IMG/VR virus record: IMGVR_UViG_3300043543_000252
Location: 1-64,000 of that record
Source of the DNA: a virus
Reading direction: 5' to 3' (one strand)
DNA length: 64,000 nucleotides
The notes below the pieces were generated by a model. It was not told the origin of the DNA. It worked only from the letters and a program-made list of their open reading frames with translations, and made no database searches. This document shows positions 563 through 17,236 of this stretch, piece after piece (position 1 is the stretch's first letter; every line of letters starts with the position of its first letter). The translations under genes and the position numbers were made by a program.

Positions 563-2392
563 CTACGCAGCTTCTCTGCCAGCTTCATGATAAGAACGAA
601 CTATATCTACCAGCTTTCCAATCATTGGCAATGTATAGTTATAAAAATCATTTTCAACCTCTAAATCCGTGCTATCTCTATTATACAAATCATCTAATAC
701 ACTTTGTACGCTATCTAAATAATCATTTCTATAAACAATTTCATTATTCTTATCTAATCTTGGTAAAATAAAATGAGAAAATATATAGTCTAATATAATA
801 GAATAGAAACCTGCCACATCAATATTTCCATAATAATCGTGATGAGCATCTAACATCTTATTAAACACATTATGTAAAACTTCTGGCACTTCTTGTGGGC
901 TAATTTTTTCCAGAAAATGCGATAATACCTCCATTTTTGGTGTTATTTTTTCAGAATTATTTTCTACCACATCTTCCCCAATTAAATCTATCACATGACT
1001 TATAGCTTGTTGTGGGGAATAATCTTTAATTTCTTTGTATAGACTATTATTTTTAAGTTTGCTAGGAGAATATAAATAAGTAAAGGTTGGGATAGCCAAT
1101 GCATTTATATCATCTAAATCACCAAACTCGCCATTAGCCCATTTTGTCAATAAATTATGCCTATGTAAAAAATTGATTAAAATATGATTACGTTTATCTG
1201 GATTTGTAACGCCTTTTATGTGATGTATCAATTCATTTTTAAGGTTATCTTTATTTTGTAACCACCAATTGGAAACTTCATTATAGTTAACCTCTTCCCC
1301 TGTTAAACCTAAAAAACCAGCCAAAGGAGAAACTCGGTCCACAAACCATAATGGGTCAGAAACTACAGTGACGGGTGAATTAGTATTAAAAAGATTATAT
1401 AAAAAACTTAAATCATTATCAATAGCAACAATTGTCGGTTTATTGTGTTTATAAGTCAGTAAGATATTACCGGGATTCCTATCTTTATTGTCTACCAAAT
1501 AATCCATTAGAGAAATTTTAAACAAATTGTTTGCCGCTTCATTTTTATTAAACACATTTTGGCGACCTTTCTCTCTAAATAATTGTCCAAGTTTTTCCAT
1601 ACCTTCAGGGGACTCAAATTTTGTAACAATCATTGGTACTTCATTTACTTTATAAGTACCGACTTGACTAACCATATCACCCAATCCTGCTTGTTTAAAC
1701 AATCGATTAGTTGTAATAGCAGACCACCCTATACTATGATTTCGTAATTTAAAATTTTTTAAACCTTTTGAATAATATGACTTTAACATATAGGTATTAT
1801 TATTTTGAGTATCTTTGTATGCAACTTTCGGAAAAGCCCCTTCATCTAAAGCTTTCTCATCAGTTTCTAAATTTGGGTCTTCTACTACTTTAGAAAAATT
1901 TTCATCCACGTGATACTCAGGTTTATCATGAAAAGAAAAATCAAACATTTTAGTAGTATCTTTACTAACGTCTTTTAAAACTTTTTGAGCATTTCTATTA
2001 TTTAAATCAATAGCTTTTTGCAATTCACTAAATTGTAAACCGTCAATATAATCTATAATTTCAGTAACACTTTTTATAACATCATCTTGTAATGCTGTCT
2101 TCTGAAATTCAGAATTTAAAGAATTTAAAACTTCTTGTCTAAAATTTTTATCTAATACATACTTTTCAAACTTTTCAATAGTACATTTTTCGTTTTTATC
2201 TTTTAAGTGTTGAAGCGCAATTTTGCCAATTTTAGAATACAATTTTTTTAATGCCGCACCACGAGCATCATCTCCGTATCTATCTTTTAGACCATTTAAA
2301 AATTGAGTAAGCCAACCTTCTTTTGTTTCAGGAAGTTCAACCTTTTCTGCTTTATTAAGTCTATAAGCTAACCAATTATCTATGTTTATCAT
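563..2392 (-). CDS. Kinase-like (PI3/4-kinase or HipA-like fold) virion-cluster protein
   Basis: This 609-residue protein has an alpha-helical N-terminal 170 residues followed by a kinase-like core. Visible core elements are a candidate ATP-binding lysine (YMLKSYY, K204), a catalytic-loop-like DNKDRNPGNIL (D304, R305, N309) and a metal-binding-like VAIDNDLSF (D325, D327). The order and spacing match the lipid-kinase/HipA-like branch, where DRxxxN precedes an ID-containing strand. The C-terminal 250 residues are helical and not recognised. It overlaps the upstream gene by 4 bases, so it is translated with the head genes. The substrate is unknown; phosphorylation of a virion or host protein is inference. 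The prohead protease gene carries a related domain. Confidence 0.6.
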   Translation of the reverse strand: MINIDNWLAYRLNKAEKVELPETKEGWLTQFLNGLKDRYGDDARGAALKKLYSKIGKIALQHLKDKNEKCTIEKFEKYVLDKNFRQEVLNSLNSEFQKTALQDDVIKSVTEIIDYIDGLQFSELQKAIDLNNRNAQKVLKDVSKDTTKMFDFSFHDKPEYHVDENFSKVVEDPNLETDEKALDEGAFPKVAYKDTQNNNTYMLKSYYSKGLKNFKLRNHSIGWSAITTNRLFKQAGLGDMVSQVGTYKVNEVPMIVTKFESPEGMEKLGQLFREKGRQNVFNKNEAANNLFKISLMDYLVDNKDRNPGNILLTYKHNKPTIVAIDNDLSFLYNLFNTNSPVTVVSDPLWFVDRVSPLAGFLGLTGEEVNYNEVSNWWLQNKDNLKNELIHHIKGVTNPDKRNHILINFLHRHNLLTKWANGEFGDLDDINALAIPTFTYLYSPSKLKNNSLYKEIKDYSPQQAISHVIDLIGEDVVENNSEKITPKMEVLSHFLEKISPQEVPEVLHNVFNKMLDAHHDYYGNIDVAGFYSIILDYIFSHFILPRLDKNNEIVYRNDYLDSVQSVLDDLYNRDSTDLEVENDFYNYTLPMIGKLVDIVRSYHEAGREAA

Positions 2393-3870: not shown

Positions 3871-4491
3871 TTATCTTTTGTCTTTAGAATTTTTAAGAGT
3901 AGGGTATCTTATTTTTGGTTTTGGTAGCTGAACAAGTCTTAAATTACTTTCTGGAAGTAATCTGGGTATAGCTATATCATCTATTAAGCCCCACTCAAAA
4001 GCTTCTTTAGCTGTTAATGTCCAATCGGCGTTTTTTAAACTTCTTAACTTTTCTTCAAATTCTTTTACAGTTTTACCGCAGTCCTCAGCTAAATTTTTAA
4101 ACATTAGTTTATTGACAAAATTTAACGACTCAGCACTAGCTTTCACTTCGGTTGACTTTCCGTAAGCTCCACTTGAAACTTCATGAACTAAAATTAAAGC
4201 ATCGGGTGATGCAAACCGTAAACCTTGAGTACCTGCGGCTAATAGTACCGCACCTGCTGACATCGCTTTACCAAGAGCAATAGTCGCTACAGGTTTAGAT
4301 GATGACTTAATTAAATCTCTCATAGCAAAAGCTGAAGTAATATCACCGCCATAACTACTAACTACAATGACAATAACAGGTATATCAGGATTAGCTTCAA
4401 GTTCTAAAAACTGCTCATAAAAATGTTTTAGAGACTCATCAGTGAATTTATGCACCCAAATATAATTTGAAACTTCTTTAAAATCGCTCAT
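3871..4491 (-). CDS. ClpP-like serine protease
   Basis: The 206-residue protein has the ClpP/crotonase fold. The catalytic triad is visible as S78 in KAMSAGAVLL, H103 in ILVHEVSSG and D156 in NADWTLTAKEA, with the 25-residue Ser-to-His spacing of bacterial ClpP. The substrate-strand motif SSYGGD lies near residues 45-50. Phage ClpP-like proteins can mature capsids or act with host ClpX. Since a separate assemblin-type prohead protease is encoded at 15521, this one may process another virion protein or replace host ClpP. The C-terminal 30 residues are basic. Upstream is a 177-base spacer with a TAGTAT-containing element. Confidence 0.85.
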   Translation of the reverse strand: MSDFKEVSNYIWVHKFTDESLKHFYEQFLELEANPDIPVIVIVVSSYGGDITSAFAMRDLIKSSSKPVATIALGKAMSAGAVLLAAGTQGLRFASPDALILVHEVSSGAYGKSTEVKASAESLNFVNKLMFKNLAEDCGKTVKEFEEKLRSLKNADWTLTAKEAFEWGLIDDIAIPRLLPESNLRLVQLPKPKIRYPTLKNSKDKR

Positions 4492-4986: not shown

Positions 4987-6393
4987 TTAGAATATATTGT
5001 CAATCAATACGTTCTTACGAGGTTGATAGCCTACAAGAGTTAAGAATCTGAAGTGAGCTTCAGGTACTGATAAATCAGAGATAGCAAGTTTCATTCTGCT
5101 GTAAGGAGCTAACTCTTTATAAGCCCAAGTATTAGCTTGAATTAGGTAGCCAGTTGTGAAACCAGCAGCCTTGTTACCTAAGTCAATGAAAGTAGTTGTT
5201 GGGTTTTTGCTATTTTTTACTCTACCGATGAATTTAGCATTTGCAGCTGATGTTCCACGATAAACATTGAAGTGAGTAGCGTTAATAGCAGCACCAGCTG
5301 TAATAGTAAGAGTTACATATTCACCAGCATTTACTGTAATAGCAGATGAAGCAATTGGTGAGCTTTCCCCGATTTCATTTTCAGCAGTTACTACATAAAC
5401 ATAAGTACCAGCAGGAATGATTGCACCGCTACCACCTGAAGTTCCAGTAACGCTAGTAATTGGAGATGGTGCACCAGCAATTAGTCTAGTGAATAATGTT
5501 CTACCTCTTAAGAAGTTGCTTGACTCAAGTTGAACTTCACCTTCAGTTACCCATTGTCTTCTTAAATCCGCACCTGATACATCTTGAGCTTTACCAGCAA
5601 GAATAATACGTTGAATGCTGTTAACACCAGTTCCAAGTGCAATTTGTTTGTTATAACCTGCTAAAGCTACAGGGTCAACATAGAGTGTATCTGCTTCACC
5701 GAAATTAAGTCTTGAACGAAGAGAAGCATCTTGAATAATAATTTGGTCAAGACTACCATTTTTAGCAAGCACTACTGAAGTACTAGAACCATAAGCTGCA
5801 AACATTAAATCTTGAGTGCTTTGTAAAATATCAGATTGACGGATTTGAGCTGCTACACCGAGTATATTTGGTAACTCTGGCATAGCAAGTGGGTTACCAT
5901 CAAACACACCGTTGTTAGAGAAATCATCTTTACCTCTAAATGAGTCAAACTCAATATCACCTGCGATAACCATTGCAGTGTTTTCAGCTTCACGGTCTTC
6001 AGCTTTTACGCCGTCAATTGTATCAACCATGTTAGCAGCAACTGTAACACGAGTTTGTTTAGCGTAGAAGCACATAGGAACAACAGCTGATACATAGTCA
6101 CCAACGTTTAAGTTTCCTATTGCACCTTCTCTAACAGCTGAACCGCCAAATTGACCATAGCTAAGTTGTCTTCTGAATTGTACGAGTAAAGATTTATGTG
6201 GCTCAACGTCAAATAATTTTTGCAACTTAATATGTTTACTTTCAAAAGTCACTTTCTGCATTACAGGTTCAATTGGTATAATTTGTAATGCTCCGCCTTG
6301 TACCAATTGACCGGGAGCGACGTTGACATTGCCCGCTTCAAGTGTTTTCACAAGGTTTTGTAATACCTTATTTAGGTCGTTAACTGGGTTCAT
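4987..6393 (-). CDS. Major capsid protein with an Ig/FN3-like insertion
   Basis: The 468-residue protein has the position and architecture of an HK97-fold major capsid protein: it follows the scaffold gene and has a hydrophobic P-domain-like C-terminus. Residues about 315-400 form a Thr/Gly/Ala-rich beta block (PAGTYVYVVTAENEIGESSP, then HFNVYRGT), typical of Ig or fibronectin-III-like surface domains on phage capsids. Residues 14-36 (KTLEAG, NVAPGQ, VQGGAL) are nearly repeated in the prohead protease at 15521. A strong terminator follows. Assembly would depend on that protease and probably the phage chaperonin. No cleavage site could be fixed by eye. Confidence 0.88.
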   Translation of the reverse strand: MNPVNDLNKVLQNLVKTLEAGNVNVAPGQLVQGGALQIIPIEPVMQKVTFESKHIKLQKLFDVEPHKSLLVQFRRQLSYGQFGGSAVREGAIGNLNVGDYVSAVVPMCFYAKQTRVTVAANMVDTIDGVKAEDREAENTAMVIAGDIEFDSFRGKDDFSNNGVFDGNPLAMPELPNILGVAAQIRQSDILQSTQDLMFAAYGSSTSVVLAKNGSLDQIIIQDASLRSRLNFGEADTLYVDPVALAGYNKQIALGTGVNSIQRIILAGKAQDVSGADLRRQWVTEGEVQLESSNFLRGRTLFTRLIAGAPSPITSVTGTSGGSGAIIPAGTYVYVVTAENEIGESSPIASSAITVNAGEYVTLTITAGAAINATHFNVYRGTSAANAKFIGRVKNSKNPTTTFIDLGNKAAGFTTGYLIQANTWAYKELAPYSRMKLAISDLSVPEAHFRFLTLVGYQPRKNVLIDNIF

Positions 6394-7256
6394 TATTGTT
6401 TTCCTCCTTTAGTTAATAAAATTTTTTCAGCTTCGTTTTTATTTATACCTTTTAAGAAATACCCCATAATTACTGTATTTTCACTCTTACTGAACGAAGA
6501 TGGTCCTAATTTTTTATACATTTGAGACATCTCTTCGTGAGTAAGAGATTTTTGCATATCACTTGCTTCAGATTTAGCAATATACCCAAGTTCTGCAATT
6601 TGAGTTATTGCTTTTCTTTCTGGTTTAGCAAGTGTAGCAAATGCTTTTGTCAAAAGAGCTAATGTTTTAGTTTGCTCATTAAGTTGAGCTTTCAATAGAG
6701 CTATTTCTTTATCTTTTTGCGATTTTGATAAGTTAGAATTTTGATTCTCCGATTTCATAGCTGGAGCTTCAGGTGCTGGAGCTTGTTCTTCTGAACCTTC
6801 TCCACCTTTAGATTGTAAGATTTCTCTTATAATCATAAAGTGTTTTTCTAACTCATCTATCGGCATTGCACTATAAACTTCACGAAGCTCATCATCACTA
6901 AGAGGTTGGTCCAAATTTTCTTCCATAGAGTTATCTTGAGGTTCTTCTTCTTGCTTTGGAGCTTGCATTTCTTGGTCATCTTGAGGTTCTTCTTCTTGCT
7001 TTGGAGCTTGCATTTCTTGGTCATCTTGAGGTTCTTCTTCTTGCTCTGGAGCTTGCATTTCTTGACCTTTATTTTGCATAGCTTGTTCCATCTCTTCTGC
7101 TAAAGCTTCTTCTTTTTGTTTTTCATCCATATCATCGTCCTCTTCTGCCTTCTTAATAGCATTATTTCCGCTAGTCATATCAGCAATTGTGCTTTCAATT
7201 GATGCGATAATGCTATCAAGGTCGGCATCAGTAATGTTAATTTTGTTATTATTCAT
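6393..7256 (-). CDS. Acidic putative scaffold or prohead core protein
   Basis: The 287-residue, strongly acidic, Gln/Glu-rich protein lies directly upstream of the major capsid gene, sharing one base with it. Three tandem 15-residue copies of the type QEMQAPKQEEEPQDD occupy roughly residues 65-108. Downstream are coiled-coil-like segments (DKEIALLKAQLNEQ) and a helical, basic C-terminus, as in scaffolds whose C-terminal end binds the capsid protein. Assignment is by position, charge and low complexity. Confidence 0.65.
   Translation of the reverse strand: MNNNKINITDADLDSIIASIESTIADMTSGNNAIKKAEEDDDMDEKQKEEALAEEMEQAMQNKGQEMQAPEQEEEPQDDQEMQAPKQEEEPQDDQEMQAPKQEEEPQDNSMEENLDQPLSDDELREVYSAMPIDELEKHFMIIREILQSKGGEGSEEQAPAPEAPAMKSENQNSNLSKSQKDKEIALLKAQLNEQTKTLALLTKAFATLAKPERKAITQIAELGYIAKSEASDMQKSLTHEEMSQMYKKLGPSSFSKSENTVIMGYFLKGINKNEAEKILLTKGGKQ
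6933..7067. repeat. Three tandem 45-bp repeats in the scaffold gene
   Basis: Units start at 6933, 6978 and 7023. Copies one and two are identical; the third differs by a few bases (Glu for Lys in one codon). They keep the reading frame, so copy number could change without a frameshift. They encode an acidic, Pro/Gln-rich linker. Confidence 0.9.
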
Positions 7257-7280
7257 AATCCCATCTCCTTACCTAATTAA

Positions 7281-7697
7281 CTATTGAGAGAGAGTTAATC
7301 CATGAATTTCGTCAGATGGTATTGAAACAATTAAATTTGCACCAGTTAAATCAAAACTTGAAGGAAGTGTAGCAATTTCATAAATTTCCAATTTCATTCC
7401 AAGTTTTGCGCAAGCAGCAACGACAATTTCTCTTAAAGCTAAATCGCTTGGAGTCTCGTCTCTTAAAATTTTACAAATATGAGGGCTATACACTCTTTGT
7501 GGTAAGCCAAGTCCATCTACACGACCAGCGTTGTCTGATACATCAATTTTAATAAAAATAGTTTCTGAACCTTTAACAAGTTTTAAGCTTTCCATTCCGT
7601 TGCTGTCAACGTCTTCTGAAATTGAAAGTCCTGATACTAACAAAGAAAGTCTTTGTTTTAATTCTCTTGCATGAGCTTGAGATTTAAATTGAGCCAT
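7281..7697 (-). CDS. Unrecognised small head-cluster protein
   Basis: The 138-residue protein starts with a helical, basic segment (HARELKQRLSLLVSG) followed by mixed alpha/beta sequence with no known motif. It is the first gene of the scaffold-capsid group and is preceded by AAAAAAGGAG and a roughly 210-base non-coding leader, so transcription probably starts there. A role in the prohead or as a minor capsid protein is inferred from position. Confidence 0.7.
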   Translation of the reverse strand: MAQFKSQAHARELKQRLSLLVSGLSISEDVDSNGMESLKLVKGSETIFIKIDVSDNAGRVDGLGLPQRVYSPHICKILRDETPSDLALREIVVAACAKLGMKLEIYEIATLPSSFDLTGANLIVSIPSDEIHGLTLSQ

Positions 7698-7909
7698 GTG
7701 TTTTTCTCCTTTTTTGTAAACGTTTAAAAAAAGTTTATAGGTTAATACCCACTATCAAAGGTTAGGACAAGCAATTATGTTATATTATTGATTATAACAA
7801 AGAACAATGTAAATTATTGAAATTATTAAATAAAATGAAAAGACTAATAATATCAAACATTTAAGATTTAAAAAACCTAAATGCTAACTATTTAATTTTA
7901 AAGGAAAAA
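7698..7909. other. Non-coding spacer upstream of the scaffold-capsid genes
   Basis: This 212-base A/T-rich stretch contains no credible reading frame. On the minus strand a TTATAAT-like hexamer lies near 7790-7796, but I found no convincing -35 at normal spacing. It is the longest gap in the structural cluster and the likely place for a promoter serving the 7281, scaffold and capsid genes. Confidence 0.4.
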
Positions 7910-8341
7910 TTAAAATTCTAAAAACAATCTTTCAGTGCAAATACGATTACTTGAAATTGCATTATTAGATTGTAAGATAATATAAGAAGTAGAGTCTAAA
8001 GATTTTTGTAAAGATGCTTCTGCAACCTTTAAACCTCTTTTTTTAGCCCAAGCAATTGCGGCTTTTTTGATTTTTTCGGAAACATTACTTCCAAAATCAA
8101 ACCTCACTTCTCCATTTTCGTATTTAGAAAAAAGCACATCATGTTTTTTAAGTTGTGATTTATACAAATAATCTTCGAATGCAGTTAGAACAATACGTTC
8201 TGCTTTACTTACACGCATTGGCGGTAAAATATCTTGATGAAATCTTTTGAGCCATTTTCTGAACCGATAAGCAAGTCTTGGCGGAAGTGCCTTTTCTAAC
8301 TCATCAATAGATTTAAAAATCCTAACTTTTTTTGCTTTCAT
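7910..8341 (-). CDS. Unrecognised basic head-cluster protein
   Basis: The 143-residue protein is Lys/Arg-rich (KAKKVRIFK at the start, KKAAIAWAKKRG near residue 90) and helical in its first two thirds, with no known domain. It follows the giant solenoid gene by 18 bases, and the CCTAATCT element lies between them. Basic charge would suit DNA or capsid-interior contact, but this is inference. Confidence 0.65.
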   Translation of the reverse strand: MKAKKVRIFKSIDELEKALPPRLAYRFRKWLKRFHQDILPPMRVSKAERIVLTAFEDYLYKSQLKKHDVLFSKYENGEVRFDFGSNVSEKIKKAAIAWAKKRGLKVAEASLQKSLDSTSYIILQSNNAISSNRICTERLFLEF

Positions 8342-8351
8342 AACATTTATA

Positions 8352-8359
8352 AGATTAGG
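8352..8359 (-). promoter_or_regulatory. CCTAATCT element upstream of the 7910 gene
   Basis: The minus strand reads ACCTAATCTTATAAATG just after the stop of the giant protein gene and 11 bases before the next start. It is one of five copies of this octamer at minus-strand gene junctions. Confidence 0.4.
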
Positions 8360-11300
8360 TTATTTACTTGACTTTAAGTCGTAAACCCAACAATCACCTA
8401 CTTGACCCATTTTCTGTTCAGCTATACGAGCAAAAAATGGGTCTGCAAATGGAGTTTCCATGTATGGTATTGGTTTAAAACCTAATGATTTTGGATGGTC
8501 ATGATAACGTTCAATTAACCATTTAGGGAAGTAATCCCGACTATAAAATGAGACATCATCTTTAGAATAAATTTCTCTATCAGGTACATCGCCAATAGAA
8601 ATAGTTGCCATAACTTCTGGAGAATACATATACAATTTTTCTACTCCATGATTGATAGCGTTTTGCTTAACAGCTTCAAATAATACATCATGGATATTTT
8701 TAAATAAATTAGATATGTTTTGAGTATATTTTTCTAATTCATCTTTAGTGTACGACATTTGACCTAATTTAATAACATCTGCTCTTTGCATAATTGCTCT
8801 TAAATTTCGTTTCCACTTTTGCGCCACATCAGACTGTAAATCTTCTACAATCCATCCTTTATTGCCCGCAGAAGTATCAATTCTCACAACCCCCATAGTA
8901 AATGGTAAGATAGGATGAGACCAAAGTTTATTACGTGGTCCACGATTATCAAATTTTATAATATTATGCGCAAGATTAAAGTATAAATTCCATAATTTTG
9001 GGTCTGCGCTCAATGTATCTTTAATTTGCTGTGAAACATTCACGTTAATTAGTAACTCATGATTTAAACGAGATGTATCATCAATGCCGCCGCCGTAGTA
9101 TTTAAAATATCTTGGCCTATTTACAATGATTGGCCAATAACCGTAAGTAATAAAGTATTGTTGTTTTTGGGCTTGCTTATATTGATTATCAATAGCTTTT
9201 ACAAAATCTTCAGGATAAACTAAATTATTAGAACCTTTTGCCATAAATACAGACTTAATCGCATCAGCTTGATTAAATTTTGGATTTTTTTGTTTTGCTT
9301 CTACCCACTTAATACCACTTGTTGGAATAAGAGACATAGCTTCTCTTAACTGCGAAATAGTTTTAGTGATTTTAGAATCTGGCATTTCTAAATTTCTAAT
9401 TAACTTCTTTTCATCTACATTTGGTATTTTTTTGGTTTTTGCAATATAAGAAAATGAAGGTGCAGGCATATGACCAAAATCTGTAATTGGTCTTGGAATT
9501 GTAATGTTTGGTGTTGGTAAAACATTTGGTAAAGAATGTAAATAATCTAAACCCCAAGTTGGATTTAATAATGCTGGGTGAACATAACCGTATGGGTCAG
9601 TAACACCTGACGGTGTGTAATAAGAATATGGAACTTGATTTGCCAAGTAGTCAAATTGCTCTTTAGTCAAATTAGGGTTACGTATCAAATCATAATACAA
9701 ATCATGATAAGCAGAATTTTGACCAACAGGTATATTTCTAATGTAATTGCCAACTTTATCATATACTACCTTTAACGCATCAGTAGATAAAAATTGATTG
9801 TTTGCTAATTCTTTTAAAACTTGTTCTGCATCTGTTTTAGATAAAATTTTTTGTACTGCTTCTTTCGTTAAATTTTTGTTTTTAGATAAACTCATTAAAG
9901 TCTTTATATTCCAAGTCATTCCAAAAACTGACGGAGAATCTAATAATTGGTCTAACACAGTAGGCGATAAATTAGCATGCTCTAAAGCTGCGTTATAAAA
10001 TTCATGCGCAACCGATTTATTTTTAAAAAATTGTCCTAAGTACTCAATGTTTGGTACTTGTTTTGATATATTTTTTGAGAATAAATTGAAAAAAGTATTA
10101 TATTTCACTTCATCTGGAATTTGAGAATTAGTAAAAATACGGTCTATTAACCCTTTATCCATTAAAAACGATAAAGCATCAGATGTGCAACGGTTAATGA
10201 TTCTAGGTACGAGTTCTGCAATATCACTATCAACATCCTCCATTCCTAAAGTAGTTTCTGCTACCCACTTATCAATCTTTGGCATCATAGGCAAAAACAC
10301 TACATTACTTGGAGAATAAATTAAATCATGCCAATTGTCTTTATCTTTTTCGTCTTCTAGAATACCATTTTTAAATAACGAACTTAAAATTAAAGTTTTT
10401 TCGTTATCTAATGACTCTACAGCACCTAATTTAGGGTGTCTAGCATCAATTACACTAAAAATAGTCTTAACTAATTTACTAGGTATGCTAATAGAATTAT
10501 TAAGCATTTTAGCAAAATTAGAAAATACGTTTTGTAATAAAGGCTCATCAATAGGTAAGCGTAATAACCTAGTTACAAACTGAGTTGCATGATTTATAGC
10601 ATTATAATAGCTTTCTTTCTTTGTTTCAGGTAGATTGATATTGTCGTTAATACCTGTATTTTCAAATAATTGAGCATAATTTTGTAATAGCGAAATACCT
10701 TCATCAAGTGGAATACTCTCAAAATCAAATTTTGTACTAATATCTTTTAGGAACTTATCAAATCTCATACTCACTTCATCGGCTAATATGTGAGTATTGT
10801 ACTTTAATAAATTATCGTTATTTTCGTTAGCATAAGTTTTTAAACGACTAATGACAGTTGCTAAATCATCACTTGCACTTGCTAACTGTAACATTCTATC
10901 TCTTAAATTATAATCCATTCTCGTATTTAAAGCGGCTCTATATAACAAGTTAGGCAATTCATCTTTTATGTCAGGCTCTTGAGAATTAAGAGCTCTATCA
11001 ATTACGGTAGTTAAATTATCTGGGTCTAAGTGATTAGCATTATTCATTAAAAATTTTAATTTAAATCCTTTTTCTGAATTAGCAACTACCTCTGGTTGAT
11101 TTATAAATGCAGGAGATGGATTATCAATAGTAATTGGTAATGAATCTGGAAGGGATGTGTAAAGCTCAATTTGCTGATGAAGTGGGATTTTATCTTGAGT
11201 AATTAAATTTGCTATTAAATTCATTGCCTCAGTAGCAATAGGTTTAGATGTATCAACGGTATAGCTTCTAATAGTATTTAAAACAAAATTAGCTTTTTCT

Positions 11301-14300
11301 GGGTCTTTATCAAAATCTAAATGATTAGTAAGTTGATTAAGAGCTTGGCGTTGTTCATTATAATTTAAATTTGGAACATCTAATTTATTTAATAATTTTG
11401 CTAAAAAGTTATAACTTAAAGTTGGAGTACTAAGTACTCTATTGATTAAGGCATCTTTTTGTAATTCAGATAAAGCGGGTAGCTTATTAAGAATCCTTAA
11501 AATATGAGATTCATTAGATTTAGTAGGTTTAGCTTTAAATACCGCAGTTGCAAATTCAAGATGCTGTTTACTAATCGCCCAAGACATTAGTCTATCTGCA
11601 AGTGAATCGCTCGCATTTACTTTTGCTTTTAAATCTTTTGGGTTAATAGAATAAATTAACGCACGCAAAGCTGTTTCTTTTTTATTATCATCTACTTTCG
11701 ATGATAAAACGTGGTCGATAAGTTTCTTTTGAAAAGTTGATTTTATATTTTCATCCCCAATTTTATTTACAAAATTTTCTACAAAATCATCAAGTAAATG
11801 TGGTTGATTTTCTAAAAGATTACTAAACAATTTAATCGGAATAGCACCTTCTTCTAATTCTTGTTTTATAAATAAATCAGGTGTAAAATTTTTAATTAAA
11901 TCAGGAGTTAATGATAAGTACTCGGTAGGGTGTATATTAGATAGTGTATCTTTGATAGCATCTTTTAAAGTATTTTTATCATCTTCTGTATTAGAAGCAT
12001 TATACGCAGATAATAAATGTACCAATTTATGAGTATCACTACCTTCTAAGTTAACCTGCGACGCATTATGAGCATCTAATAGCCCATTTTGATATAATTT
12101 ATTAACTAAATTAGAATTGTTTTTAAATCTACCTAAATCTTCTAAAGTAATTTTGGCTTCTGGTTGATTTTTGATAGTTTCTGTATAATGTTTCACATTT
12201 GGCTGTAAAAATGGGTCTTCTAAAGCGTTTTCTAATAAATAACTCCCAATACTTGCATAATCCTCACCTTTATTTTCGAATGCTTGTAAAAAGTTTCGAA
12301 TACCTTCATTAAAAAATCCGTTTTCCATGAAATATAAATGAGCTAATTTATTTAAATTAGTAGGTTTATCTAAACTTAATAATTTATCACTAATTTTATC
12401 TATGTTATAAATTTCTCTATTTCTATTGTGATAGTGCGCTAGTTCGTGAAAAACCTTTGGACTCATTTCTATGTCGTGAATATTTTGAACTTCATCATTT
12501 AAAAGTTGATGTGCTATATTAGCATAATAATCATTATTATTTGTACGCTTATTAAATAAATTAACTAATGCTAAACCTGTTTCATCATTAGAACGAATTA
12601 AATTTTTAATGGTATCAAAAGGTAATTTATTTTGTACAATATCAGGGTGGTGAGCGATAACTTGAGTAATATCATTTGGTGAAAGCTTAGAAATAGCTTC
12701 TTGCCATATATGCATTGGAGCTTTTGCAGACCTTGCTATCAAATTAAAAGCATTATCATTATTTAAGCTTAAAATTGTTTCAAACATTTTTTGTTGAGTT
12801 TCAGGATTTTCATGAAATACCGCTCTTTTATCTAACACGGTATTTTGACTTTTATCTAGAGTATCATATACAAAAGGCTTATAATCTTGGCTTAAAACTT
12901 GAGATGCCAATTCTTTAAACGCTTCATCTGCCAATTTAGGATGTGAAAATAGAAGATTTCTTAATTTTAAATTTGATTCATCTTCTGGTTTTTCTTTAAT
13001 AGTATTGTATAAATCATTCACTAACTCTGCTGGTAAACTTGGTTTTTGTAAATCATGTTCAAGATAACTATCAATGTCAGTTAGGTTTACTAACCGAGAT
13101 TTGACTTTATCATAATGATTAGTCAATAAATTATAAATTGCCTTTTTAGTAGATGAATTGGAGACGTCGGCATGTTTTTCTAAATCACTCTGACTATCAA
13201 AAATATCATTTATATGCCTTAAAATTTTAGTGTCTAAATCTTGTTTTAAATGATTGAGTTGTTTTTTAGTTTCTTCGTCTGAAGCAACACCTAACTCTTT
13301 TTGCGTTAACTGATTGATTTTAGAAAAACCATCTACTAAGTTAGATTTTGTATCCAAATAATCTTGTAATCCGTCTAAAGAAGTCGGTTTTGTAAATGAA
13401 CTATAAGCTTTATGTAATACGTTTAATAAATCTAAATACTGTTTTTGAGTTTCTGGATTTTCGTATAAATTATTTAATAACAAATTATTTTGTTTATCAC
13501 TAAAAATATGAGAGCCTCTAATGCTACCATTATGAACTAACTGAGATAGTAAGCCTAAGGCTTCGGTATCGTATAATTTTTTAAGTAATAAGGAAGCAGA
13601 AAATTCTGGCTTAATATCAGCAGCCACTAACGCAGCGTGCTTAATCACTTCAGTATTTGCTTGAGGAGAATTAACTACATCATTTAAAATATCTAATGCG
13701 TGTGGTTGTTTTGGGGATAAATCTCTTACTTTATTTATTATATCTTTTAAAATTGATGGATTAGTATGAGGCGAAGTTGCTACCTCTTTAAATACCGACA
13801 AGTCATCAGTATGTTTCTTTTTATCCCAAAAATCAACAATCAAATCCGCAGGCGTATTAGAGTTTTTAACTATATTATGATAACCTTTTTTGTATAACTC
13901 TCTAATTTCATCTGGTGTAATGCTAGGATTTGAAGCTAACGCTTCAGCCATTTTTTGATGCGATTGCGTATCCTTCGTTACTAACATTTTTTTAATAACA
14001 CTTTTTTTAGTAGTTTCAGGTAAATTAGGATTAGACAAAGCGTGTAAAGCTTCGTTTGTAGCTTTTACATCATTTACCACTTTTGCCAACAAAACAGGGT
14101 CGGCATTATGGTGTGTTAAGATATTTCGCATTACTTTTTGATGAGCCTCTTTATCTTTTACCTCAACTGAACTTAAATAATTATATAAAGTATTTAAATG
14201 CAAGTGCTGTAAAGTAGGCTGTTTACTTAAAGCATCTAAATAACTATATTGGTTAGGTAAATTATGAGCATTTTCAATCAAAATCTTAACACGTTTTGTG

Positions 14301-14923
14301 TTAAAATCTTTATCCGCAGGATTAAATTTTTTAGTAGCAGAAAGACCATGCAAGGCAATGTCTTTTAAAGTATTTAAATGTTCTAAGGTGTTCTTATCTG
14401 TGTCAGCAGTTTGGTCTTTGACGTTTTCAATTTGTTTAGAAATATCATTATATAAATTTTCAAAGTATTCACCTGAAATATTATCTATATTTTCTTTAAC
14501 CGTATTGGTAAGAAATTGAGGTACTACCGAATAACTATTAAAAACTTGCGGGTTTTTAATAATTTTATCCAAAAAATCCGTAGTTTCATCTGGGTGATTA
14601 TTTATTTTTTGAAGCACAGAGTGTAATAAACCACTATTACTTGGTTGAGCTTCTAATTGCGAATGTTCATCTTGAATAATTTGTTTTTTAGTAAATGAAG
14701 CAGCTGAAGGGTGATTAAAAATTTTATTATTTAATAATAACTTGGTATCTGTTGATAAAGGTAACTGATTGACTTTCTCATATACACTTTGCAAAACTTC
14801 AGAATCTGTATTAGGGTGAGAAAGTATCCTCTGTAACTGCGGTACAGCATCTATTTCATTATCTGGTAAACTTTTTACCTGTTCTTTTAAAATATCTGAA
14901 TTAGATTTTTGAAGGTCTCTCAT
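8360..14923 (-). CDS. Giant alpha-solenoid protein, 2187 residues, probably virion-internal
   Basis: This is the largest gene in the window. About 1,700 residues consist of degenerate helical repeats with recurring short patterns such as HPNTDSEVL, NPSITPDEI and NPNLTKEQF, resembling HEAT or leucine-rich-variant solenoids. The C-terminal 400 residues form a distinct domain with GWIVEDLQSD. A similar (I/V)E(D/E)(I/L)QSD motif occurs, as I recall, in large polyvalent proteins of phages that are packaged and injected. Its place among head genes supports a packaged or portal-associated role. It overlaps the upstream gene by ATGA. No membrane segments are evident. Confidence 0.8.
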   Translation of the reverse strand: MRDLQKSNSDILKEQVKSLPDNEIDAVPQLQRILSHPNTDSEVLQSVYEKVNQLPLSTDTKLLLNNKIFNHPSAASFTKKQIIQDEHSQLEAQPSNSGLLHSVLQKINNHPDETTDFLDKIIKNPQVFNSYSVVPQFLTNTVKENIDNISGEYFENLYNDISKQIENVKDQTADTDKNTLEHLNTLKDIALHGLSATKKFNPADKDFNTKRVKILIENAHNLPNQYSYLDALSKQPTLQHLHLNTLYNYLSSVEVKDKEAHQKVMRNILTHHNADPVLLAKVVNDVKATNEALHALSNPNLPETTKKSVIKKMLVTKDTQSHQKMAEALASNPSITPDEIRELYKKGYHNIVKNSNTPADLIVDFWDKKKHTDDLSVFKEVATSPHTNPSILKDIINKVRDLSPKQPHALDILNDVVNSPQANTEVIKHAALVAADIKPEFSASLLLKKLYDTEALGLLSQLVHNGSIRGSHIFSDKQNNLLLNNLYENPETQKQYLDLLNVLHKAYSSFTKPTSLDGLQDYLDTKSNLVDGFSKINQLTQKELGVASDEETKKQLNHLKQDLDTKILRHINDIFDSQSDLEKHADVSNSSTKKAIYNLLTNHYDKVKSRLVNLTDIDSYLEHDLQKPSLPAELVNDLYNTIKEKPEDESNLKLRNLLFSHPKLADEAFKELASQVLSQDYKPFVYDTLDKSQNTVLDKRAVFHENPETQQKMFETILSLNNDNAFNLIARSAKAPMHIWQEAISKLSPNDITQVIAHHPDIVQNKLPFDTIKNLIRSNDETGLALVNLFNKRTNNNDYYANIAHQLLNDEVQNIHDIEMSPKVFHELAHYHNRNREIYNIDKISDKLLSLDKPTNLNKLAHLYFMENGFFNEGIRNFLQAFENKGEDYASIGSYLLENALEDPFLQPNVKHYTETIKNQPEAKITLEDLGRFKNNSNLVNKLYQNGLLDAHNASQVNLEGSDTHKLVHLLSAYNASNTEDDKNTLKDAIKDTLSNIHPTEYLSLTPDLIKNFTPDLFIKQELEEGAIPIKLFSNLLENQPHLLDDFVENFVNKIGDENIKSTFQKKLIDHVLSSKVDDNKKETALRALIYSINPKDLKAKVNASDSLADRLMSWAISKQHLEFATAVFKAKPTKSNESHILRILNKLPALSELQKDALINRVLSTPTLSYNFLAKLLNKLDVPNLNYNEQRQALNQLTNHLDFDKDPEKANFVLNTIRSYTVDTSKPIATEAMNLIANLITQDKIPLHQQIELYTSLPDSLPITIDNPSPAFINQPEVVANSEKGFKLKFLMNNANHLDPDNLTTVIDRALNSQEPDIKDELPNLLYRAALNTRMDYNLRDRMLQLASASDDLATVISRLKTYANENNDNLLKYNTHILADEVSMRFDKFLKDISTKFDFESIPLDEGISLLQNYAQLFENTGINDNINLPETKKESYYNAINHATQFVTRLLRLPIDEPLLQNVFSNFAKMLNNSISIPSKLVKTIFSVIDARHPKLGAVESLDNEKTLILSSLFKNGILEDEKDKDNWHDLIYSPSNVVFLPMMPKIDKWVAETTLGMEDVDSDIAELVPRIINRCTSDALSFLMDKGLIDRIFTNSQIPDEVKYNTFFNLFSKNISKQVPNIEYLGQFFKNKSVAHEFYNAALEHANLSPTVLDQLLDSPSVFGMTWNIKTLMSLSKNKNLTKEAVQKILSKTDAEQVLKELANNQFLSTDALKVVYDKVGNYIRNIPVGQNSAYHDLYYDLIRNPNLTKEQFDYLANQVPYSYYTPSGVTDPYGYVHPALLNPTWGLDYLHSLPNVLPTPNITIPRPITDFGHMPAPSFSYIAKTKKIPNVDEKKLIRNLEMPDSKITKTISQLREAMSLIPTSGIKWVEAKQKNPKFNQADAIKSVFMAKGSNNLVYPEDFVKAIDNQYKQAQKQQYFITYGYWPIIVNRPRYFKYYGGGIDDTSRLNHELLINVNVSQQIKDTLSADPKLWNLYFNLAHNIIKFDNRGPRNKLWSHPILPFTMGVVRIDTSAGNKGWIVEDLQSDVAQKWKRNLRAIMQRADVIKLGQMSYTKDELEKYTQNISNLFKNIHDVLFEAVKQNAINHGVEKLYMYSPEVMATISIGDVPDREIYSKDDVSFYSRDYFPKWLIERYHDHPKSLGFKPIPYMETPFADPFFARIAEQKMGQVGDCWVYDLKSSK

Positions 14924-15540
14924 TGCTTCTTATCTCCGTACTTAAAGAGATATAACATTTTTTTAACAAAATCTGGGTCTTCAGCATCTGAATAATCTTG
15001 GGATTCAATATTGTAATCATAGTTAGCATTACTCATTTTATCTAACCTATCTTGATTGCGTACATATTCTAGCATATATTTTAAATAAGTCGGATTTAAA
15101 CGTGGCTTCTGTCTAATTTCTGTATTAGTAGTAGAATTTTCTTGAACTTGTTTTAATGCAACTGATATTGGTAAACTACTACCATCTTGGCTAGCTACTT
15201 GTAATTGATTGGTTGCTAGTAAATTTAGAAGCTGTTGTTTTTCTATATCACTTAAAAGTGTACCATTTACAAACATCGTTTTTAAATCATTAGTTACTTC
15301 TACTACATCACCATTATTTAATAAATATCGAATAATACTATAATTTTTTAAGTCATCTTTTTGTAATTCTAAATGAGAAGATTGATTTATAAAATTTTGT
15401 AATTTAGAAAAATCATCTCCTGCTTTTTTAGGTAACTCACCTTTAGTATTATCTAAAATAAACTGAACTCTTTTACCGTCAGTACGAATTTTTGCTACTA
15501 TTACTTTAGATTCGGTTGATTTAATTATGTACGTTTCCAT
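14920..15540 (-). CDS. Unrecognised structural-cluster protein
   Basis: The 206-residue protein starts with a beta-rich 50 residues (METYIIKSTES, KVIVAKIRTDG), followed by charged helical sequence and an acidic, Tyr/Asp-rich C-terminus. It overlaps the protease-kinase gene by 20 bases and the giant solenoid gene by 4, so the three are translationally coupled. No family is recognised. Confidence 0.7.
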   Translation of the reverse strand: METYIIKSTESKVIVAKIRTDGKRVQFILDNTKGELPKKAGDDFSKLQNFINQSSHLELQKDDLKNYSIIRYLLNNGDVVEVTNDLKTMFVNGTLLSDIEKQQLLNLLATNQLQVASQDGSSLPISVALKQVQENSTTNTEIRQKPRLNPTYLKYMLEYVRNQDRLDKMSNANYDYNIESQDYSDAEDPDFVKKMLYLFKYGDKKQ

Positions 15541-17236
15541 CCGAAGACCCTCTTACTAATATACCATTTATATTTTCTTCTAACTCTAATAATTTATTTA
15601 AAAGATAGTTAATCGGCTTTTTATCTGTTAATAAATGTTGAAGCAATCTTAACCTTGCAAATGCTTTTGCAATGGCTTCTTGAGGTATAGAATGACGTTT
15701 TAAAATTTGAACTAATTTTTGGCCATCAATAGACTCAAGCCACTTCTCTACATTGTAAGGTAGAGTATTCTCTGGCGGCTCAGGTAAGGGGTTAATACTA
15801 CTAAAACGAGCAATACCACTAGGAGTAATAGATGAATAGTCAAAAGCTTTATGGCTGTCAATTAAACGTGGAGTATTATCATAACCAATCATAGTATCTG
15901 TTATACCATCTCTATCCATTCCTAAAATCGTATCCATAAGTAAAATTTTATGCCATAAACCATTTTTTTTAGCTTCTTCTTCCATTTTTTCAGCTCTTTC
16001 TTTAGACTCAATCGGAGAAGTATCCCAATTTTTATAAGTAATATACATTGGCTTGCCACCTTGTACTTTTGGGTTTGAAGCGAACACAATGGTAGGAACC
16101 ACATCGCCCATATTAAATAAATTATGGGCAATATCATAATACGCTAAAGCTCTATTTCTTTTATCTTCATCAATTGTATCATCTATTCTTACTAATGCTT
16201 CCATGCCTTTATCATTTTTGGCTTTTTCAATATGTTTTGTAGTCGGGTAGTCAGGAGTCTCTGATGATACATATAAACCATTTAAAATCTGGCTTTGACT
16301 ATCATTTAAAGGTATAATAGAATCTGAATTAGTTAAACGAATTAAAGGTCTTAAACCTTTTTTTAGCGCTAAATCTTCTGCTAAGTTCTCAAAATGGTCT
16401 AAATACTCATCGGCTACTTCTGGGAGTGCGGCTTTAATAATTTCACGTATTTTTTTGGGAGTATGTAAATTTTGTTTAATGATTTCAAGTATTTTCGTTT
16501 TTATTTCATCTGGTATAATCGTTTTTTTCTTTGCTTTTTTAGTACCTGATAAAGCAGAACCTGCAACAGCTTGTGCTGGCGCGACATTTCCCTGTCCTGC
16601 ACTCAAAGTTTTTTGTAAATCAACTAATGCTAGTTTTAAAGCCTCAAACTTATTTAAATTTGGGTAAAAAGCAGAATCTAAAATAACACTATCTACTTCA
16701 ATTAGATGTTTACCTTCTGATTTACCAAGAGATTTTTCAACAATATCTTTATATTTATCATCTTCTAACAAATCAGCAATACAAGTTTTATTGCAAGGTC
16801 TTAAAGTAAAAGCAACTCTACGACCTACCGACCTGACTAAATGATTTCCCTTTCTTTCTAAAGTTGAACCCTCTATCGAAAAACCTGCCAGTAATTTTTC
16901 TTTTCTTTTTGCGTAATATCTAATCATTGCGGCAGCAGCTACAGCTCCCGGATGCTCCTCATCATCGAATAATTCAGCAATAATATAAACAAAAGGCTTT
17001 TTAACACTATCCCAGTACTTTTTTTGACGCTCATTTTCACAATCTTTTTCTGAAAAAATCTTTTTAGCATAAATAATATGACCAATAATATCATCAGGCT
17101 GACCATTTTCATGTTCAAAGTTGAGTACACCTTTCCCTTCAACTAAATCACTAATATCATGCCCTTTAATATCTAAAACTTCTCCAGATGAATCTAGATG
17201 CTGAGATGCGGCAATACCATCAATTTTAAGCCCCAT
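15521..17236 (-). CDS. Prohead maturation protease fused to a kinase-like domain
   Basis: Residues 1-150 look like an assemblin-type (XkdF/U35-like) prohead protease: H42 in LNFEHENGQPDDIIGHI and S120 in LLAGFSIEGS are the candidate catalytic His and Ser. Residues 207-229 (LQKTLSAG, GNVAPAQAVAGSAL) nearly repeat the N-terminus of the major capsid protein. Residues about 290-480 form a second kinase-like domain with ILLMDTILGMDRDG (D441, R442) and RLIDSHKAFDY (D460), related to the protein at 563; the usual loop Asn is replaced by Thr446, so it may be inactive. A protease-kinase fusion is unusual. Proteolysis of capsid and scaffold is the expected role. Confidence 0.72.
   Translation of the reverse strand: MGLKIDGIAASQHLDSSGEVLDIKGHDISDLVEGKGVLNFEHENGQPDDIIGHIIYAKKIFSEKDCENERQKKYWDSVKKPFVYIIAELFDDEEHPGAVAAAAMIRYYAKRKEKLLAGFSIEGSTLERKGNHLVRSVGRRVAFTLRPCNKTCIADLLEDDKYKDIVEKSLGKSEGKHLIEVDSVILDSAFYPNLNKFEALKLALVDLQKTLSAGQGNVAPAQAVAGSALSGTKKAKKKTIIPDEIKTKILEIIKQNLHTPKKIREIIKAALPEVADEYLDHFENLAEDLALKKGLRPLIRLTNSDSIIPLNDSQSQILNGLYVSSETPDYPTTKHIEKAKNDKGMEALVRIDDTIDEDKRNRALAYYDIAHNLFNMGDVVPTIVFASNPKVQGGKPMYITYKNWDTSPIESKERAEKMEEEAKKNGLWHKILLMDTILGMDRDGITDTMIGYDNTPRLIDSHKAFDYSSITPSGIARFSSINPLPEPPENTLPYNVEKWLESIDGQKLVQILKRHSIPQEAIAKAFARLRLLQHLLTDKKPINYLLNKLLELEENINGILVRGSSDGNVHN

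Follow-up and report, generated by a model that had tools for sequence, protein, structure and literature searches.

To our knowledge, little is known of how a separate prohead protease enters the head of SPO1-like phages, among which are therapy phages of Staphylococcus, Listeria, Enterococcus, and Bacillus, and of when it acts there. A stretch of viral DNA of 64,000 nucleotides (IMG/VR record IMGVR_UViG_3300043543_000252, positions 1 to 64,000; hereafter the window) gives this question a concrete form: why does a prohead protease carry a piece of the major capsid protein (MCP)? In a large set of phages, SPO1 and Staphylococcus phage 812 among them, the protease contains a copy of the first residues of the mature shell protein. 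The two copies evolve in concert, which suggests that one shared tag carries the enzyme into the shell and sets the place of the cut in both proteins. Such a peptide common to enzyme and shell, together with a predicted cleavage signal Phi-x-K↓S in capsid, protease, and scaffold (Phi, hydrophobic residue; the arrow, the cut bond), makes the question of recruitment directly testable, and it may yield a tag for loading proteins into SPO1-like heads.

The two carriers in the window

Residues 14-36 of the window MCP (LVKTLEAGNVNVAPGQLVQGGAL) and residues 207-229 of the prohead protease (LQKTLSAGQGNVAPAQAVAGSAL) are identical at 15 of 23 positions, and the two copies agree at 36 of 69 nucleotides. 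The original prediction, which had announced about 15 of 23 identities between these residues, was thus exact. It had also held the remainder of the two proteins to be unrelated, and indeed the best local alignment of the whole MCP with the whole protease is the block itself (36 residues, score 74). Searching the six frames of the window with the motif as a regular expression revealed no third carrier; only the MCP and protease copies match. Both have Thr at P1' and miss the E/Q found at +22 in relatives.

The MCP is of the SPO1 type, its residues 6-467 aligning with positions 14-468 of the family phrog_752 in a whole-protein profile match (Table 1). For the protease, the match to phrog_1028 covers residues 5-52 only and there is no Pfam S78 match; a profile-profile comparison of its group with the SPO1 group gave a probability of 98.6 (E 6.8e-16). 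Moreover, H42 and S120, taken as the catalytic His and Ser, are invariant in 13 relatives, as are E122 and G123, and lie in EH and SxEG contexts, matched by NFDH and FSVEG in the SPO1 protease. The motif had been described as a protease-kinase linker. This needs correction, since it does not directly precede the kinase: the catalytic domain is followed by the motif, then by a three-helix segment (profile match to the same region of a related group, probability 81.8), and only later by the kinase-like region. To judge from its residues, the latter looks degenerate and inactive: a relative, L101, keeps DRHAGN and matches PI3_PI4_kinase (E 1.4e-6), and the window protease reads DRDGITD. AlphaFold models had a pLDDT of 42.7 for the MCP and 48.7 for the protease, too poor for fold searches.

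Table 1. Head genes and protein parts in the window, with positions in related contigs (L001, L002) in brackets
Feature	Position	Strand	Basis
Major capsid protein, SPO1-type	4987..6393	-	phrog_752 E 1.2e-34; PDB 9vel SPO1 gp6.1 E 3.2e-11
Shared motif in MCP, residues 14-36	6286..6354	-	Alignment; homologues in five lineages
Predicted MCP N-terminal propeptide, residues 1-16, ending at K16	6346..6393	-	Homology to phage 812
Putative scaffold protein adjoining MCP	6393..7256	-	Synteny with SPO1 gp3.3
Prohead protease with C-terminal extension	15521..17236	-	phrog_1028 E 1.3e-5; group profile-profile comparison
Shared motif in protease, residues 207-229	16550..16618	-	Sequence; homologous copies in other proteases
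Protease catalytic domain, ~residues 3-156	16769..17230	-	Invariant columns; low-confidence model
Three-helix segment after motif, residues 243-292	16361..16510	-	Model pLDDT ~70-79
Kinase-like region, apparently degenerate, protease C-terminus, limits approximate	15803..16210	-	Comparison with L101
Huge ORF	8360-14923 (L001 1305-7274; L002 1330-8034)	-	
ClpP-like protease	3871-4491 (L001 18806-19474)	-	Pfam CLP_protease 2.3e-33; phrog_94 head maturation protease
Second PI3_PI4_kinase-like region	563-2392	-	2.7e-6

Three further genes were noticed around these two. A huge ORF (1989-2234 aa in this lineage), with no useful Pfam match, lies between the protease and capsid genes; a ClpP-like protease, additional to the S78-like prohead protease, stands beside the capsid gene; and the head module holds a second kinase-like region.

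Spread of the block and phages that depart from it

The shared block is a family trait, not a peculiarity of the window. There are 60 non-redundant phage genomes in which the prohead protease repeats the beginning of the mature MCP of the same phage; these were obtained from a first collection of 67 loci with both copies and 13 more pairs from contigs near the window lineage. Five lineages are represented, i.e., SPO1, Herelleviridae, the Touem01-type, the Mx1-type, and an Mx1-related group. In SPO1, protease gp3.2 has LDKSLEAGYEVDPEKMEGGDVFRKESLDKDLKNLSY and capsid gp6.1 LNKALEAGHTVNPLDLEGGGAFRVESLERSLHNLSF; the Mx1 pair reads AKAMEAGNFNAAPSTLQGGSAL and RKAMEAGNFNAKPSTLVQGSAM. Unusual variants can be shared by the two copies of one genome, such as the odd HGGTDQ core of ADU4 or TYAGTAP in contig G002; the pair of Lalka8 is strongly diverged (p 2e-4). 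The proteases of SPO1 and phage 812 match the major-head-protein family phrog_752 through exactly the block stretch (E 4.4e-5 and 4.4e-6, respectively), and among PDB entries that of 812 finds its own capsid chain (E 1e-6). In a related group (L109, L111, L112, L114, L116, L119-L121, and L123-L127), the genes of protease and capsid lie on opposite strands and the protease has long, varied insertions; the motif is kept in most of them and is weak in L125.

Within the collected loci, no carrier other than MCP and protease was found, two extra matches being truncated copies of those genes. The Mx1 MCP found nothing in cellular genomes, and a scan with the DAC23 MCP also returned nothing. We also rejected the block as a general trait of ordinary HK97-type phages, since pairwise local comparison of the protease-capsid pairs of HK97, Sfi21, and D3 gave no such block at this site. 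A literature search of partial coverage yielded no account of the shared block and no paper for PDB entry 9row.

The case named beforehand as refuting, one protein with the motif and the other without it, is real: examples are the MA9V-3-like and L076-like phages, DAC23, LE1, and L032. Because of these exceptions, the coupling of capsid and protease is strong but not absolute. In MA9V-3 with six related contigs, and in the L076 group, protease and K-S-rich scaffold form one fused protein, encoded immediately before the MCP. The protease copy is absent from all the fusions found, and MA9-like MCPs keep K[AS]MxAG. Hence, these phages are consistent with a protease copy that serves recruitment, a role that fusion would make needless. 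Herpesviruses of the UL26 type have such a protease-scaffold fusion, in which a covalent link takes the protease along; unlike them, most of the present phages keep the two genes apart, and the block is found where there is no fusion. On the other hand, recruitment must be possible without the block, since DAC23 and LE1 have separate proteases that lack it and L032 and L045 have a decayed protease copy. In the Touem-type L034, L035, L040, and L041 (some of them near-identical), it is the MCP copy that has changed: it reads EVPLEAGYG, with the cut-site Lys lost and a K-A four residues upstream.

Cut bond, co-variation, and scaffold sites

Where does the block stand with respect to head maturation? 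The mature MCP chains of phage 812 (48 chains in 9row, 9rox, and 9roz) have S25 as their first residue, directly behind K24, with which the block opens; this start was taken from the deposited PDB chain sequence. As the mature chains begin right after the block Lys, the block is a cleavage bond followed by the new N-terminus, which is retained in the capsid, and not a removed leader. The suggestion that the motif might be removed from the mature capsid is therefore wrong for this family. Indeed, in a column-by-column alignment the within-genome identity of the two copies jumps at the Lys (position 0) and remains high as far as about +25, beyond which it declines, and upstream only a hydrophobic residue at -2 (P3) is common to both copies. 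The Lys itself is present in 45 of 47 MCP copies and 46 of 47 protease copies. By homology to phage 812, we predict cleavage of the window MCP at K16↓T17; self-cleavage of the protease is likewise predicted, at K209↓T210 in the window phage. We had also considered a single P1-Glu site in the T4/phiKZ style, at the E of ..GGALRxES, and rejected it: the mature 812 chain already begins some 22 residues before it, at K↓S, and in the window this E is missing. Maturation at K↓S is not general, however, since the annotated mature starts of Sfi21 and phiC31 fall elsewhere.

If an old duplication had merely diverged, the two copies of one genome should be no more alike than swapped pairs. On the contrary, the check proposed at the outset, for co-variation in homologous capsid and protease pairs, was positive: over the 60 non-redundant pairs, the quartet score was positive in 1377 of 1377 between-lineage comparisons, which reuse genomes and lineages and so are not independent (five lineages, ten lineage pairs), and a within-lineage permutation gave p 5e-5. 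The 15 residues upstream of the block showed no within-lineage signal (p 0.97). Co-variation peaks at +6 to +10 and +14 to +22, and in 95% of genomes the two copies have the same choice of E or Q at +22. At identical residues, codons were identical in 344 of 722 cases (330 expected), i.e., without excess beyond usage. We thus rejected recent duplication or gene conversion; co-variation without excess codon identity indicates that selection probably acted on the peptide.

A similar site recurs in the scaffolds. Among 19 of them, K-S was found 136 times where 47.4 would be expected (z 14). The other K-X dipeptides all stayed within z 0.7, and K-S was not enriched in MCP bodies and portals. The scaffold context is hydrophobic-x-K-S, and in four lineage groups the 73 ORFs that precede the MCP hold hydrophobic-x-K-[SAT] at 3 to 6 times expectation (218 vs 35 expected in the SPO1 group, 142 vs 33 in the Touem group, 229 vs 63 in Mx1 and related phages, and 61 vs 19 in the Herelle group). 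The window scaffold has five K-S of the predicted Phi-x-K↓S type, for 2.1 expected. Since scaffolds over-represent the Phi-x-K↓[SAT] site of capsid and protease, all three proteins appear to share one cleavage signal, the cutting of scaffold and protease being predicted. These scaffold sites carry Phi-x-K↓S alone, without the extension of about 24 residues. The window scaffold also contains approximately three tandem EMQAP[EK]QEEEPQDD units near its N-terminal third.

Proposed recruitment by a docking peptide and competing readings

We consider it somewhat probable, on balance, that the block is a shared prohead-docking peptide placed behind a protease cut site, which recruits the protease and is then severed from it; the docking role and its partner are here proposed by inference. 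The element would consist of a bond Phi-x-K↓[S/T/A], cut by the phage's own prohead protease, and of the following ~25 residues, which would form the mature N-terminus in the capsid protein and the start of the C-terminal extension in the protease. During assembly, these residues may bind a common prohead partner, either the scaffold or a groove on neighboring capsid subunits, and the protease would be carried into the shell by mimicking the N-arm of a capsid subunit. Once activated, it would digest the scaffold at many Phi-x-K↓S sites, trim each capsid protein at a like site, and sever itself from its own docking tail. The original prediction had left the choice between a scaffold-binding address, a protease recognition sequence, and a targeting peptide. 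The second holds for the site residues (the K↓S start of 812, the Phi-x-K-S of scaffolds); the extension fits docking or targeting better than cleavage alone, because it lies downstream of the cut, co-varies, and is absent from the scaffold sites.

Other readings have to be weighed against this one. Chance likeness of two Ala/Gly-rich stretches could be imagined from the window 23-mer, which is dominated by low-complexity residues, but the alignment score was reached by none of 1000 shuffles (Gumbel p 1.2e-4), the block has p 4.9e-8 to 3.8e-9 in SPO1, 812, and Touem01, and dozens of genomes carry it, so that we regard chance as practically ruled out. Separate copying of the capsid segment into the protease in each lineage, with a likeness due to recent common origin and no shared function, would explain why the capsid copy of its own lineage is the best match of a protease copy in 59 of 60 cases. 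We find it very unlikely: the place of the copy is always between the catalytic domain and a C-terminal helical part, likeness within genomes exceeds chance inside lineages too, synonymous codons show no excess identity and hence no recent copy, and conservation stops sharply at the cleavage Lys.

The main rival makes the block a ligand of the protease itself, an exosite substrate in the capsid and a pseudo-substrate in the protease tail, which would be cut in trans or keep the enzyme inactive until assembly, with no docking to scaffold or shell. That the start of the block coincides with the cut bond speaks for it, two copies that fit one groove of the enzyme should co-vary just as well, and self-cleaved C-terminal propeptides are known (PMC10052503). 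However, the scaffold sites do without the extension, which is thus unneeded for recognition as such; the co-varying positions reach ~22 residues past the cut, far for active-site pockets; and fused protease-scaffold enzymes lack the block though they also need regulation. This rival seems to us possible but doubtful.

Known systems offer partial parallels to the docking peptide. The HK97 MCP is cut at K↓S (K103/S104, PMC10275583) and, as here, keeps its N-arm after the cut; the proteases of 812 and SPO1 match PF04586 and belong to the same class (Peptidase_S78) as HK97 gp4. Unlike here, the scaffold of HK97 is built into its capsid protein as a domain, and gp4 and gp5 lack such a block (best local p 0.026, protease residues 8-45). 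The proteases T4 gp21 and SPN3US gp245 also act on prohead proteins that share short cleavage signals; propeptides can target T4 proteins into the core, and gp245 removes its own C-terminal 64 residues, a precedent for a removable protease propeptide (PMC10052503). Their P1 is Glu (e.g., ARE-12 and E-124; PMC10052503), whereas the block has Lys. Moreover, the T4-type signal is removed and ends in Phi-x-Glu; the block starts with Lys, its conserved part follows the cut, and the capsid copy is kept, only the protease copy being predicted to be severed.

A more specific form of the docking peptide, in which the protease tail mimics the mature capsid N-arm in the shell lattice and the severed tail stays inside with its fused domains as cargo, is in our opinion unlikely. 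If true, the kinase-like or GGDEF domains behind the tail would be head cargo in the window lineage, and Herelleviridae and their relatives would share, in the block, a natural tag for packaging into the capsid. In contig L004 (9992-12412), the prohead protease bears a fused GGDEF domain (1.3e-7), and a separate GGDEF gene, whose product could be packaged as cargo, follows just after the protease in Mx1 (L005 16127-16858, 1.3e-9).
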